In this document: one piece after another, positions 18,067-43,579 of the stretch
Numbering within the stretch: the first letter of the stretch is position 1
How the letters are laid out: every line of letters begins with the position of its first letter
Notes under the pieces: model-generated
What the model was told of the DNA's origin: nothing
The model's database searches: none
The model's input: only the letters and a program-made list of their open reading frames with translations
Origin: Pontimicrobium sp. SW4
GTDB lineage: Bacteria; Bacteroidota; Bacteroidia; Flavobacteriales; Flavobacteriaceae
Direction of reading: 5' to 3'
Assembly (NCBI RefSeq): GCF_039954625.1
Contig: NZ_CP157199.1
Location: 2,108,001-2,172,000, forward strand
DNA length: 64,000 bases
Translations under genes and position numbers: made by a program

Positions 18067-18651
18067 ATGAAGAAACATATAGTTACAATTTTGCTGCTAT
18101 TTTTTTGCATGCTATCATATAGTCAAGAAGAGGAAAGTCTTGAAATATTTACAACAGATAGCACCTGGGTAAAAGAAATTATAAAATTCCCAATTAATTT
18201 TGCTCAAGACATCAACTATGAAGGTTTTGAAGATTTAAGATTTCCTCAAGGATGGTCAAATCAAAAGAGTCCAAACTTTTGGTCTTATGTTTGGGCTTGG
18301 AGTATTAATAGTACAGAAAAGCCATCTGAAAGTGACTTAGAAAAAAATGTGCAACTCTATTTTGACGGTTTATTAGGTCTTGATTTTTACAAAATTAATG
18401 ACGTTAAAACACCCAAAACAAACGCCGTTTTTATCAAAAAAGGAAGCACACAATATATAGGCAAAGTTAAGACTATTGATACACGCTACACCAAACTACC
18501 AATGACCTTAAATGTACTTGTTGAATACCACTACTGTGAGACTCAAAAGAAAACGATTATGGTTTTTAGATATTCGCCAAAACCATTTGATAATGCTGTT
18601 TGGGAAACGCTAAATGAAGTTAAACTACGAGCTGATGCTTGTGAGCTTTAA
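18067..18651 (+). CDS. Hypothetical secreted protein
   Basis: 194 residues with a signal peptide (MKKHIVTILLLFFCMLSYSQ). The mature part is rich in aromatic residues, with 'GWSNQKSPNFWSYVWAW' at about 65-81, and has no motif I can name. It lies 37 bases after the TonB-C-domain gene, so the two are probably co-expressed and may work together in the periplasm. It is followed by the repeat-rich gene-free region. Confidence 0.7.
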   Translation: MKKHIVTILLLFFCMLSYSQEEESLEIFTTDSTWVKEIIKFPINFAQDINYEGFEDLRFPQGWSNQKSPNFWSYVWAWSINSTEKPSESDLEKNVQLYFDGLLGLDFYKINDVKTPKTNAVFIKKGSTQYIGKVKTIDTRYTKLPMTLNVLVEYHYCETQKKTIMVFRYSPKPFDNAVWETLNEVKLRADACEL

Positions 18652-18670
18652 TGCTAATTGATAAACACCA

Positions 18671-18707
18671 TATTTGACTTTGTAAGAAAAATTGTCGAAC
18701 TTCGTTT
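18671..18707 (+). repeat. 37-bp dispersed repeat, copy 1
   Basis: Aligned without gaps to 23422-23458, it agrees at 33 of 37 positions; the last 21 bases (ending AATTGTCGAACTTCGTTT) are identical. This copy runs into the left terminal inverted repeat of the structured element and overlaps it by seven bases. Confidence 0.85.
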
Positions 18708-18988
18708 AACGTCGGATATGAGTCATTAAAACGACGCATATCCGTAAAAATAATGGTATGTAATTGCCTGCGGCACGTAGAATCGCGTTTTGCAAACGCT
18801 TCCTTTCTACTAATTACATACCATCGTCCACTGTTAATTGCACCTCGCCAAATTAATTGTATATTTATTCGAGTCTACGAGAACTCCTCACGAAACTACA
18901 CACATCAGCGTGTATAGCGAATGAGGCGCATTTATGGCTCTCCGTGAGGCGCGCCTCACTACGCCATACACAGTGGACGTTAAACGAA
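18701..18988. repeat. 288-bp element of nested inverted repeats
   Basis: Terminal inverted repeats are perfect over 13 bases: TTCGTTTAACGTC (18701-18713) and GACGTTAAACGAA (18976-18988). Inside are a CGGATATG/CATATCCG hairpin (18713-18744); a long hairpin at 18753-18824 with a 13-bp outer stem, a GTAGAA/TTCTAC middle stem, a GCGTTT/AAACGC tip and an 11-base one-sided bulge; a CGTCCACTG/CAGTGGACG pair (18825-18833, 18971-18979); a GTGTAT/ATACAC pair (18910, 18966); and a 16-base palindrome at 18944-18959. There is no gene inside. It could be a MITE-like element, a large attC-like recombination site (GTTTAAC and GTTAAAC match RYYYAAC/GTTRRRY), or a structured RNA. Confidence 0.75.
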
Positions 18989-18998
18989 ACTCAAAAAA

Positions 18999-19232
18999 TC
19001 ACTCTCTATCTCGCAGCTTCTTCAACATCTCTAAATACATGTTTTCAACCTTAGTTCGTGCCCAAGGTGTACGACGTAAAAATTTTAAACTCGATTTTAC
19101 GGAAGGGTCGTGAGTAAAACAACGTATGTTTATATTATAGCCTAAATATTCCCAACCATAGCGATCTACCAAATCATTAATGATTTGTTCGAGTTTTATA
19201 CCATGCAAAGGGTTATTAGGTTGAGATGACAT
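18999..19232 (-). CDS. VF530 family (DUF2132) DNA-binding-like protein
   Basis: 77 residues matching the VF530/DUF2132 family: '[21 protein letters not shown]', '[24 protein letters not shown]'. The family is small, basic and widespread; a structure from Vibrio fischeri suggested DNA binding, but the role is unknown. Its start overlaps the stop of the upstream DUF6500-like gene by one base (TAATG), so translation is probably coupled. It ends immediately next to the repeat-rich region. Confidence 0.88.
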
Positions 19233-19441
19233 TATTGTGCAAGCGATTTTATTTTTACAGCTTTTTCAAAATGGTCTAACTGATGCGTTTGTATCCACCA
19301 TGTAGCGGCTTCCATCAATAGCTTTGGATTATCATTTTTATTTGCAAAAAACGCATAGAAGGACACACCTACATTGTCCCCTTTTTGAGCTATTTTCTTA
19401 TTACAAACGTCAATAATTTTGTTTCGTAATTCGGCAGTCAT
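19232..19441 (-). CDS. Small conserved protein, DUF6500-like
   Basis: 69 residues: '[19 protein letters not shown]', '[23 protein letters not shown]', '[13 protein letters not shown]'. The pattern resembles the DUF6500 family; that assignment is from memory and only moderately sure. Function unknown, no signal peptide. It lies two bases after rhlE and overlaps the VF530-like gene by one base, so the three probably form one transcript. Confidence 0.7.
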
Positions 19442-23421: not shown

Positions 23422-23458
23422 TATTTGACATTGAATAAAAAATTGTCGAACTTCGTTT
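23422..23458 (+). repeat. 37-bp dispersed repeat, copy 2
   Basis: Agrees with 18671-18707 at 33 of 37 positions with no gaps. It ends at TTCGTTT, 28 bases before the ATG of the M28 peptidase gene, and is not followed by the structured element that adjoins copy 1. Confidence 0.85.
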
Positions 23459-23486
23459 CATTACAATACTTATTAAAACACTATTC

Positions 23487-25103
23487 ATGAAGAATTTCTT
23501 AAAAATCTTAGTAATTATACTATTCATTAGTTGTGAAAACGACAAAAAAGACGCCACAAACTTAGTTGAAGTTGAACAAACAACTATCAGTAACCATATT
23601 AAACGTTTAGCATCTGATGAATTTCTAGGAAGAAAACCATTTACAGAGGGCGAAGTAAAAACCATAAACTATTTAAAAGATGAGTTTGAAAAATTAGGGC
23701 TTTTACCAGGAAATGGCGATAGTTTTTTTCAAAATGTGCCTATGGTAGAAATTACTGGAACACCTTCAGAAAACATGGTGATTTCTGGAGACAATGGAAA
23801 TTTTAATTTAGAATCCTTAAAAGATTTTGTAGCTACAACTAACAAGGTAGTAACTGATGTTGGTCTTGAAAACTCCGAACTTGTTTTTGCAGGTTATGGT
23901 GTAGTAGCACCAGAATATGATTGGAATGATTATGAAGGTATAGATTGGAAAGGAAAAACAGCAGTCGTTTTAATAAACGATCCAGGTTTTAAATCGGGAG
24001 ACTCAACATTATTTAAAGGAAACGAAATGACCTATTATGGTCGTTGGACTTACAAATACGAAGAAGCAGCAAAGCAAGGTGCAGATGGACTTATTATTAT
24101 ACATGATACTGAACCAGCGTCTTATGGTTGGAATGTTGTAGAATCTGGTTGGAGTGGTGCTCGATTAATTATAGAAAGTGATTTACCTCAGCTAAATGTT
24201 GAATCTTGGATAAGTGGTGAAAGTGCCAATAAAATGTTTGGAATTTCATCTATGAAAGGGCAAGATTATAAAACTTTAGCTAGAAATAAAGACTTCAAGC
24301 CTGTTCCATTAGGATTAAACGTTTCAGTAAGTATTAGTAATAGTATTAAAAAAGATGTGTCTAAGAATGTAGTTGCCATGATTCCTGGTACAGACAGAAA
24401 AGACGAAGTTATTATTTATTCAGGACATTGGGACCATTTTGGTGTTGGTAAAGCTATAGAAGGTGATTCCATCTACAATGGTGCTGTAGATAATGCTTCT
24501 GGAACCGCAGGATTATTAGCTATTGCTGAAGCATTTAAGAAAGATAATCCAACAAAACGCTCTATTGCTTTTATTGCTGTAACTGCTGAAGAACAAGGGT
24601 TGTTAGGCTCTGCTTTTTATGCTGAAAATCCTATTTTCGATCCTAAAAAAACAGTGGCGAATATTAATATCGATGCACTTGATAGTCCTGGAAAAATGAA
24701 AGATTTAACCATTACAGGTTATGGTCAATCTGAAATGGATGAATATGCCAAAGAAGCAGCCACTAAACAAGGCAGATACATTATTCCAGATCCTGAAGCT
24801 GAAAAAGGCTACTTCTTTAGATCTGACCATTTTAATTTTGCAAAAATTGGCATACCCGCATTGTACGCAAGTGGTGCCTACGAAGGGTTTGATAAAAGTA
24901 TTGAAGAAATAAAAGCGTATAACGATTTTTATCGTATTAATAAATATCATCAGCCTTCAGATGAATACGATCCTGAAATCACAGAATTAAGTGGTATACA
25001 ATTAGATTTACAATTATTTTTTAATGTAGGATTACAATTAGCTAATGAAGATTATTTTCCAAAGTGGTATGATGGAAGCGAGTTTAAAGCGGCAAGAGAA
25101 TAA
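23487..25103 (+). CDS. M28 family metallopeptidase with PA domain, lipoprotein
   Basis: 538 residues. Signal with lipobox Cys16 (ILFISCEND). A protease-associated domain is inserted at about residues 130-260. The two-zinc site is complete: His314 ('SGHWDHFG'), Asp335 ('GAVDNASG'), catalytic Glu368 and Glu369 ('TAEEQGLLGS'), Asp396 ('NIDALD') and His448 ('SDHFNF'). It is an aminopeptidase of the M28 type acting in the periplasm or at the outer membrane. The leader contains copy 2 of the 37-bp repeat. Confidence 0.94.
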   Translation: MKNFLKILVIILFISCENDKKDATNLVEVEQTTISNHIKRLASDEFLGRKPFTEGEVKTINYLKDEFEKLGLLPGNGDSFFQNVPMVEITGTPSENMVISGDNGNFNLESLKDFVATTNKVVTDVGLENSELVFAGYGVVAPEYDWNDYEGIDWKGKTAVVLINDPGFKSGDSTLFKGNEMTYYGRWTYKYEEAAKQGADGLIIIHDTEPASYGWNVVESGWSGARLIIESDLPQLNVESWISGESANKMFGISSMKGQDYKTLARNKDFKPVPLGLNVSVSISNSIKKDVSKNVVAMIPGTDRKDEVIIYSGHWDHFGVGKAIEGDSIYNGAVDNASGTAGLLAIAEAFKKDNPTKRSIAFIAVTAEEQGLLGSAFYAENPIFDPKKTVANINIDALDSPGKMKDLTITGYGQSEMDEYAKEAATKQGRYIIPDPEAEKGYFFRSDHFNFAKIGIPALYASGAYEGFDKSIEEIKAYNDFYRINKYHQPSDEYDPEITELSGIQLDLQLFFNVGLQLANEDYFPKWYDGSEFKAARE

Positions 25104-42208: not shown

Positions 42209-43048
42209 TTATTTTTCTTCTGGAAGAATTGTTGGTTTTTGATATTCTTGAAATGGCTGCTTTAATAACTCTATAAGGTTACCATTTTTGACTTCATCTG
42301 GAAATACATCTACACCATATATTATCTTTTCTCTATCCATTTTCATATAGGTTCCAAAGAGTCTGTCCCAAATAGAAAAAATATTGCCATAATTAGAATC
42401 GGTATATGGCAATACGTAATGATGATGAATTTTATGCATATCTGGAGACACCAAAATATAACTTATAAAATGATCTACCTTTTTAGGTAATTTAATATTT
42501 GCATGACTAAACTGAGTCGCCACTAAAGACATAGATTGATACAACATCACGATACCTATTGGCGTCCCTATAATGATAACACCAGCTAACGTAAAAGTAT
42601 AACGTATTAAACTTTCTAATGGGTGATGCCTATTGGCTGTTGTTGTATCCACCTTATGGTCGGTATGATGGACTAAATGTATCATCCATAATGGTTTTAC
42701 TTTATGCTCTACATAATGTGCTAGATAAGCACCAATGAAGTCCATTAACAACACACCAAGCAACACATACAATGCTAAAGACATTTCTGGTAGCCAATTA
42801 ATAATTCCGAAATCATTTACAATTACCCAATCGGATGCTTTTAATAACAAGAATGCTAAGGCAAAATTTATAATAATTGTTGTAAAAGTGAAAAAGACAT
42901 TAGGAACAGCGTGTTTCCATTTATGATATTTAAACCTAAATAAAGGTACAGCACCTTCTAGTAACCAAAAAAAGGTCAAGCCTCCTATAAGTATTAAACT
43001 TCTATGAAGTGAAGGAATGGTTTCAAAATAATTGATGATGGTTTCCAA
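42209..43048 (-). CDS. Sterol desaturase / fatty acid hydroxylase family protein
   Basis: 279 residues. Four or so membrane segments and the His clusters of the family: 'HYVEH', 'HLVHHTDH', 'NRHHPLE' and 'HKIHHHY'. These bind a di-iron centre. Bacterial members hydroxylate or desaturate lipids, including hydroxy fatty acids or carotenoid-like substrates; the substrate here is unknown. No partner gene adjoins it. Confidence 0.9.
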   Translation of the reverse strand: METIINYFETIPSLHRSLILIGGLTFFWLLEGAVPLFRFKYHKWKHAVPNVFFTFTTIIINFALAFLLLKASDWVIVNDFGIINWLPEMSLALYVLLGVLLMDFIGAYLAHYVEHKVKPLWMIHLVHHTDHKVDTTTANRHHPLESLIRYTFTLAGVIIIGTPIGIVMLYQSMSLVATQFSHANIKLPKKVDHFISYILVSPDMHKIHHHYVLPYTDSNYGNIFSIWDRLFGTYMKMDREKIIYGVDVFPDEVKNGNLIELLKQPFQEYQKPTILPEEK

Positions 43049-43168
43049 TAATAGTATTCTATTTGTTAGACAACTAATTTAGTGATTCTATGTTTAATTG
43101 AAAATCCACGAGGGTTTTCGTAAGTAAGATAGAACTAAATTAATTATACAATCTGCTGCGCGTTGGCT

Positions 43169-43579
43169 TTATTCCGTTTTGATTTCAACAAGAATTAGTT
43201 TGTCAGACTTTAATTCCACTATTCTATAAACAGTTCCTTTTCGATTAATTGGTTCAGTAGTAGTAATAATCCATTCTTCTTTATCTAGACTCCATTTTCC
43301 GATATAATTATGAGTCCATAACATAGAGTCATTTCCGCAAGGTGCTGAATATCTATTACGAAATTCTCCGTTTATAAGTATTTCGATTCTTAATCCGTAT
43401 TCATGTCCAGTTGTTACTTTTTTTTCAAAAACTAAATCGTGTTTTCCTCGATTATATTTTGGATACCATACGCCAATTAAATCATCCGAGTTAAAGTCAA
43501 TCAATGACTTTTCCTGCCCAAAACTTAATTGATAGCCAAACAGAATAGTCAAAATCAGTAAAAAAATTTTGTTTTTCAT
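43169..43579 (-). CDS. Hypothetical secreted lipocalin-like protein
   Basis: About 136 residues from the ATG at 43579, which starts a clean signal peptide (MKNKIFLLILTILFGYQLSFG); the in-frame start at 43633 lies inside the upstream gene and would bury the signal. The mature part is beta-rich: 'DDLIGVWYPKYNRGKHDLVFE', 'YIGKWSLDKEEWIITT', 'RIVELKSDKLILVE'. This pattern (GxW start, repeating strands) is lipocalin-like but weak. Function unknown. Confidence 0.65.
   Translation of the reverse strand: MKNKIFLLILTILFGYQLSFGQEKSLIDFNSDDLIGVWYPKYNRGKHDLVFEKKVTTGHEYGLRIEILINGEFRNRYSAPCGNDSMLWTHNYIGKWSLDKEEWIITTTEPINRKGTVYRIVELKSDKLILVEIKTE

Follow-up and report, generated by a model that had tools for sequence, protein, structure and literature searches.

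The usual picture of an integron is a single platform whose one landing site adjoins the intI gene (PMC8618304), and IntI recombinases are characterised by an IntI-specific additional domain (PMC9668308), as stated in the available parts of both sources. For Bacteroidetes, few integrons have been recorded: the accessible part of PMC9024848 reports that an earlier IntegronFinder survey found only In0, to which IntegronFinder 2.0 adds one complete integron, from Salinibacter ruber. Cassettes can also enter genomic sites away from the integron: IntI-driven insertion at such attG sites has been published (Loot 2024, via the available parts of PMC12901181 and PMC12444791). In the literature covered, which left bioRxiv and most subscription journals outside its scope, no account from Flavobacteriaceae of dispersed promoter acceptors or of integron-like arrays of cassettes was recognised, which is weak evidence of novelty.

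Here we characterized a locus in a 64,000-nucleotide stretch of the flavobacterium Pontimicrobium sp. SW4 (NZ_CP157199.1, 2,108,001 to 2,172,000), called the window below. The comparisons point to an integron-like system with dispersed, promoter-carrying acceptors, in which the window very probably holds one landing site occupied by a gene-free cassette.

An earlier note, made from the letters of the window, had described a nested inverted repeat of 288 bp. All of its elements were found again: TTCGTTTAACGTC (18701-18713) and GACGTTAAACGAA (18976-18988) are exact reverse complements, the 72-base hairpin is present with outer arms that are perfect over 13 bp, CGTCCACTG (18825-18833) pairs with CAGTGGACG (18971-18979), and the 16-bp palindrome GTGAGGCGCGCCTCAC lies where it was placed. 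Likewise, GTTTAAC (18704-18710) and GTTAAAC (18979-18985) match the R'' and R' consensus. A repeat search of the region recovered the three main repeat pairs. The predicted DNA fold had an energy of -58.9 kcal/mol compared to -31.2 ± 3.35 for 200 shuffled sequences (z -8.27), and the RNA fold -100.5 compared to -62.88 ± 4.38 (z -8.59). The structure is thus real, and it is composite: an outer acceptor is split by an inner cassette of 227 bp. The 13-bp terminal repeat, exact as it is, does not represent one ancestral arm, because the right-hand GACG (18976-18979) is the end of the inserted cassette and only the outer nine bases (18980-18988) belong to the landing site, as its right half. The coordinates of all parts are collected in the table.

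Features of the occupied acceptor and its surroundings (window coordinates)
Feature	Position	Strand	Basis or use
Upstream neighbour gene, 194 aa	18067..18651	+	anchor for finding the orthologous position in sister genomes
Acceptor left half, promoter-like: TTTG 18673-18676, 20-nt spacer, GAACTTCG 18697-18704	18673..18704	+	conservation across the alignment of 32 acceptors
Outer stem of the acceptor, left arm (TTCGTTTAAC), with R''-like box GTTTAAC 18704-18710 inside	18701..18710	+	inverted-repeat pairing
Acceptor inner hairpin CGGATATG 18713-18720 / CATATCCG 18737-18744, with tail to junction 18752^18753	18711..18752	+	folds, alignment
ORF-less cassette, 227 bp	18753..18979	+	nine own-genome copies; presence/absence in sister genome; no target-site duplication
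Cassette module 1, hairpin (ATGGTATGTAATT ... AATTACATACCAT)	18753..18824	+	six compensatory and no broken pairs against G005
Cassette module 2 (CGTCCACTG ... CAGTGGACG)	18825..18979	+	attC-like site at 3' end; outer stem covaries
attC-like site of the ORF-less cassette (GTGTATAG ... CCATACAC ... G^TT)	18892..18989	+	R2 match, E 0.007
Acceptor right half (TTAAACGAA), which together with G18979 makes up the R'-like box GTTAAAC	18980..18988	+	directly after empty acceptors; after the attC end in occupied ones

The earlier note had compared the whole structure to an integron attC site. The kind of system was right, with R-box-like ends that act as recombination half-sites, many copies, arrays and a recombinase, but the 288 bp are not one attC. 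A single oversized site of the 57-141 bp class was rejected, the structure being acceptor plus insertion; a sibling copy (L080) has an empty orthologue (L117). A structured RNA, another reading offered there, found no support in Rfam: no family reached the gathering threshold in the window, and within 18601-19100 the sub-threshold matches were mir-4847 and snoTBR7. The two main stems nevertheless covary between two genomes. A tRNA/tmRNA search of the window and a phage search at distant sensitivity gave no match.

A search with the 288-bp sequence in the own genome (G000, 3.44 Mb, 2 contigs) found 25 places, and matches occurred in 9 of 60 genomes, the own one included. The inner part was present at nine of the 25 places, five times without the left outer part directly adjacent, while the 16 short matches comprised the left outer part (15) or the attC end (one, L010). 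From reading the flanks, the constant unit spans 227 bp, ATGGTATG...CAGTGGACG, i.e. 18753-18979 in the window. The nine copies are identical save for T or A at unit base 179; three of them (L006, L007, L009) lie within 16 kb on one strand. In G005, of the same genus, there are five full copies of a relative that is 78-81% identical, and these differ from one another by 0-2 bases. When the own fold was compared with a G005 copy, a comparison of only two independent sequences, 58 of 80 pairs were unchanged, 2 changed on one side, 9 changed in a compensatory manner and 11 were broken. All broken pairs lie inside module 2 (nine in 18834-18878, one at 18923/18957 and one at 18931/18948), the outer stem of which carries two compensatory changes and no broken pair. 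Both further copies and covarying stems, on which the earlier note had made its reading depend, were therefore found.

The unit ends in an attC-like site, which in the window lies at G000:C1:2126892-2126989. We built a covariance model, R2, from 19 aligned attC-like sites, among which the unit's own 3' end was not included. In the own-genome search R2 matched the 3' ends of eight of the nine unit copies at E 4e-4 to 0.03, and the 3' end of the ninth (L006) was matched in a smaller search. The unit occurs in arrays of cassettes as well as in acceptors. In arrays it stands between gene cassettes, at the G^TT point (once G^AT) of attC-like sites.

The landing site in the window consists of 18673-18752 plus 18980-18988 and belongs to a family of about 90 bp. 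The alignment of 32 left parts reads TTTGACTTT...(TA/GA)ACTTCG, then TTTAACG, the hairpin and the junction; TAACTTCG replaces GAACTTCG in many copies. The acceptor model R1 matches the window at 18672-18747 with 94.6 bits. The front of the acceptor is similar to the flavobacterial sigma-A promoter box, given as TAnnTTTG in the accessible part of PMC9723704, from which we infer that it may act as a promoter. A further stretch of the window, 23423-23490, is similar to the front half of the acceptor (TTTGAC...GAACTTCG) and gives a weak model match; it lies just upstream of a gene that starts at 23487.

In the own genome R1 gave 40 matches at E ≤ 0.1. The 33 kept for analysis lie on contig C1 at E ≤ 0.00144; of the others, two were on the small contig C2, four had E > 0.01 and one was a palindrome match on the opposite strand. 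Contig C2 (6,997 bp) carries an acceptor copy whose flanks are nearly those of the chromosomal L013 and may be a duplicate contig or a plasmid. R1 matches were found in 14 of 60 genomes (own included), with 7 to 36 each in G000-G005, G011, G022, G024 and G034 and 1-2 in the other four. No mobility signature of the acceptor family itself was seen. Acceptors of like orientation cluster on the chromosome (6 circular runs among 33, permutation p 0.0002), which is possibly related to replication direction; the GC skew at the loci is too noisy for a leading/lagging call, and dnaA at 1.98 Mb does not mark a strand switch.

The cassette junction is one exact point, [A/G]^TTAAACGAA, without duplication. 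An empty acceptor continues directly with TTAAACGAA after the junction, and an occupied one with the start of a cassette, for example TTGGCAACA; in many of the latter TTAAACGAA comes after the attC-like end. We examined 71 acceptors, namely the 33 kept from G000, 20 of 31 matches of G001 and 18 of 23 matches of G002. A simple script called 22 of them empty (6/33, 7/20 and 9/18, respectively), where the call for L107 (G000) is weak and L101, L144 and L153, empty by eye, were left uncalled. The two halves also match each other in sequence: six of seven G000 acceptors with the left arm TTCGCTTATC have the right half ATAAGCG (at most one mismatch) at a distance of 0.3-1.3 kb; for the seventh, L108, the script found no matching right half.

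Acceptors and attC-like sites are linked in position. Within 3.5 kb downstream, 16 of the 33 acceptors have an attC-like match on their own strand and 0/33 one on the opposite strand; 1/33 has a same-strand match upstream. In 2000 random shifts the mean was 0.55 and the maximum 5. For five of the 16 (L001-L004, L088/L005) the match belongs to the 227-bp unit, before which a gene stands at L088/L005.

We then compared orthologous acceptors among G000, G001 and G002, all of the same genus, in 17 groups that were defined by the left flank and aligned in full. Ten groups had both flanks aligned and different content. L080/L117 is an exact presence/absence of the 227 bp; L085/L125/L146 hold about 2.3 kb, nothing and 1,078 bp, L110 is empty where L118 has about 1.07 kb, and contents differ in L091/L147, L096/L127, L081/L151 and L102/L152. 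They differ also in L094/L145, where the left alignment is short, and in L108/L153, which has a left-side indel of about 175 bp. The tenth, L124/L134, is the orthologue of the window site, empty in G002 and filled in G001 with a gene cassette of about 1.13 kb. In an eleventh group (L109/L119) both sides align, with a degenerate acceptor in G000. In two groups both species have an empty site (L084/L120; L097/L122 with the left flank partly aligned), and four share the left flank only (L088, L105, L107, L079).

The window copy, L001, has only the left flank in common with L124 and L134, its right flank being rearranged. The right flank of L124/L134, with a gene that we take to be odhB, is found in G000 beside L083. 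The right-hand gene of the window copy (region 18980-19440, in which the 77-aa ORF at 18999-19232 is presumably VF530) adjoins a different acceptor, L116, in G002 (G002:C5:434764-437666). Right-side genes are thus exchanged between the acceptors of different species, such that rearrangement breakpoints coincide with acceptors.

Cassettes also occur in tandem. The array L052 (G000:C1:3366001-3386000) consists of mostly same-strand genes that are parted by inverted repeats of about 140 bp of the form TGCCAACAACGTGTATA...CATACACAAACACG^TTGGCA, and G005 (L056) has the same array repeats. The own genome has two arrays; beside the second, near 885-895 kb, no match to the family of the recombinase described below was found. 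The 19-site alignment and R2 confirm an imperfect inverted repeat of the attC type at cassette 3' ends. Concerning the R boxes RYYYAAC/GTTRRRY, the acceptor pair GTTTAAC/GTTAAAC fits, while most array sites fit the AAC/GTT core only. At E ≤ 0.1 R2 matched the own genome 46 times, and attC-like matches were found in 43 of 60 genomes, among them 35 of 37 of the own family. Since matches to the acceptor are far rarer (in 14 genomes of the 60, with only 1-2 in four of them), acceptors are not obligatory. A weak attC-like match in the window itself (43029-43169, minus strand, E 0.013 genome-wide) lies away from any acceptor and is perhaps a decayed cassette end.

The cargo includes TIR-domain, acetyltransferase, transporter and regulator genes. 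Among ten chosen acceptor ORFs nine match Pfam (including TIR, nucleotidyltransferase, ABC transporter, DinB, SnoaL and HTH), and among ten chosen array ORFs eight do, three of these below the cut-off, with domains including TIR/SEFIR, GNAT, AraC, SnoaL and the beta-lactamase family.

Whether a cassette is a unit in the integron sense can be read from its start. We scored the first 14 bases of each cassette against the R'' box of its own attC and compared the mean with shuffles. The 23 gene cassettes of the arrays L052, L056 and L053, from which seven ORF-less unit rows were excluded, scored 10.7 of 14 compared to 6.8 when shuffled (maximum 8.1 in 5000), with three cassettes at 7. With the ORF-less rows all 30 cassettes had a mean of 9.3 compared to 6.0, and a control of R'' against the start of the next cassette gave 6.2 (n = 27). 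For 20 acceptor cassettes, i.e. the gene-cassette loci that R2 matched clearly, a few of which may hold more than one cassette, the score was 9.25 compared to 5.5 (maximum 7.25); L085 was left out because it holds several cassettes. Four of these 20 (L100, L099, L134, L116) scored 3-6, at least partly because the simple R'' finder missed the box. At five recombinase loci of other organisms, among them Algibacter onchidii, Winogradskyella ursingii and Seonamhaeicola aphaedonensis, 24 cassettes scored 10.6 compared to 6.7 (maximum 8.1). The first 14 or so bases are thus complementary to the cassette's own R'', which makes the gene cassette a unit in the integron sense. The seven ORF-less rows scored 7 in three cases and otherwise 4, 3, 2 and 2. 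The start of this unit pairs with module 1 and not with its own attC, which suggests that the ORF-less unit is probably itself composite.

At the start of array L052 a tyrosine recombinase of 393 aa is encoded (L052:18540-19721, minus strand). According to the earlier note, such a gene nearby would support the attC reading; this one stands at the end of an array that holds copies of the inner part. Pfam assigns Phage_integrase and a SAM-like N-terminal domain. The NCBIfam scores are 195 bits for XerA_Arch (cut-off 220) and 194 for the integron integrase TIGR02249 (cut-off 265), and in none of the 60 genomes did a protein exceed the TIGR02249 cut-off. Among the matches listed for this profile, the 25 at E ≤ 1e-30 end at profile positions 176-197 of 315. 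Aligned to IntI4 (2a3v), the protein has 20 residues (280-300) where IntI4 has 63 (183-246); the IntI-specific insertion is absent from all 14 aligned family members, this protein included. A structure model (mean pLDDT 81, pTM 0.53) matches Xer/IntI folds. There is also an extra N-terminal alpha/beta domain (residues 1-80; about 95 residues) with no Pfam match, which is kept in relatives including other Bacteroidota.

In this form the recombinase is not maintained throughout the genus: identity is 71% with that of G003 but 37-39% with those of G001 and G002, and the G005 match, which is shorter, has 38%; in the draft G004 (86% complete) no long form was found, yet it has 29 acceptor matches. 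Of 80 related recombinase loci, 11 have attC-like matches at E ≤ 0.001 and 69 have none, many of the latter being short contigs. After splitting the loci by hand, attC-like matches were found at 10 of 34 with the extra N-terminal region in the match versus 1 of 46 without it. The matches lie downstream on the recombinase strand in 38 of 40 cases; the other two lie upstream on the opposite strand, in L185. Among the matches listed, and judged by eye, the best recombinase lies within about 15 kb of an attC-like match in G000, G001, G002, G005, G011, G014, G017, G019, G029 and G034. Among the same matches it lies about 60 kb from an attC-like site in G006, and on another contig in several attC-bearing genomes, e.g. 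G003, G007, G022 and G031. At the recombinase gene itself there is no acceptor: the first cassette follows close after the stop codon with no acceptor between (L009). The recombinase is tied to the cassette system by position only.

Together these data suggest the following way of working. The recombinase would recombine folded, single-stranded attC-like sites with acceptors. An acceptor promoter would express the inserted gene, such that each acceptor would work like a separate attI with Pc. The ORF-less cassette would spread as a minimal passenger of the system. The recombination evidence at hand is the occupancy differences between species.

A known-type integron on its own might produce this picture, if cassettes of a chromosomal integron leaked to attG-type sites and the acceptors were good sites of this kind that happen to be repeated promoters. 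The published IntI-driven insertion mentioned at the outset lends this reading a precedent. A G/A^TT junction would fit attG-type sites. We consider it unlikely, given that none of the 60 genomes passes the TIGR02249 cut-off, that the local recombinase has no IntI-specific domain and that the acceptors form a conserved family of about 90 bp, in which a promoter-like part is combined with a hairpin and with a right half that matches the left arm, instead of scattered minimal sites. Less likely still is that the acceptor is a regulatory RNA or a promoter repeat, with a hairpin that serves the RNA and only incidental cassette insertion. The promoter-like front, the conserved hairpin and the many empty acceptors (22/71 by script) would agree with this, but the pairing of the outer stem persists even where its halves lie a kilobase or more apart, and attC-like sites are enriched downstream on the same strand.

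IS1111-attC elements and group IIC introns target attC, and the 227-bp core could in principle be the end of such a hairpin-targeting transposon or a MITE, which the earlier note had named as a main alternative, unrelated to cassette recombination. It is multicopy and ORF-less, with strong hairpins and near-identical copies. It shares its junctions with gene cassettes, however, shows no target-site duplication, stands between gene cassettes in arrays and has a 3' end that is recognised, albeit weakly, by an attC model made from other sites (eight of nine copies, the ninth separately). We regard this explanation as highly improbable.

The integron-like system with dispersed acceptors resembles integrons in its tandem cassettes of one orientation, the attC-like imperfect inverted repeats at their 3' ends, the G^TT junction, the complementarity of the cassette start to its own R'', the ORF-less cassettes and the recombinase gene at an array end. 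It differs in the recombinase, which lacks the IntI-specific domain and carries an extra N-terminal one, in R boxes mostly of the GCCAAC/GTTGGC or CACAAC/GTTGTG kind, and in that no attI was found at the recombinase while dozens of promoter-like acceptors lie elsewhere in the chromosome. With attG insertion it shares cassettes at genomic sites away from the integron, but here these sites are one conserved repeat family and hold different cassettes in sister species. The catalytic part of the recombinase has its best sequence and fold matches in Xer-type enzymes (archaeal XerA, 5hxy; 4a8e), from which it is set apart by the N-terminal domain and by the position of its gene at cassette arrays. 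The second own-genome array is like a CALIN in having no recombinase-family match beside it, except that the same genome has the recombinase elsewhere, plus single-site acceptors. The functional likeness to integrons is well supported; the recombinase keeps the system out of the integron family in the strict sense.

We lean, with some reserve, towards the view of a distributed integron: in place of a single attI and Pc, dozens of promoter-plus-hairpin acceptors, each taking and expressing one or a few cassettes, would be served by a non-IntI recombinase family that is widespread in the family and other Bacteroidota, and the ORF-less cassette would have multiplied as a parasite. If this is true, attC-like sites are present in 35 of 37 genomes of the family without a protein above the IntI cut-off, and the system would be an independent test case for what the special domain of IntI is needed for. 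Cassettes would be captured and expressed over the chromosome, forming a large unnoticed pool of mobile accessory genes.
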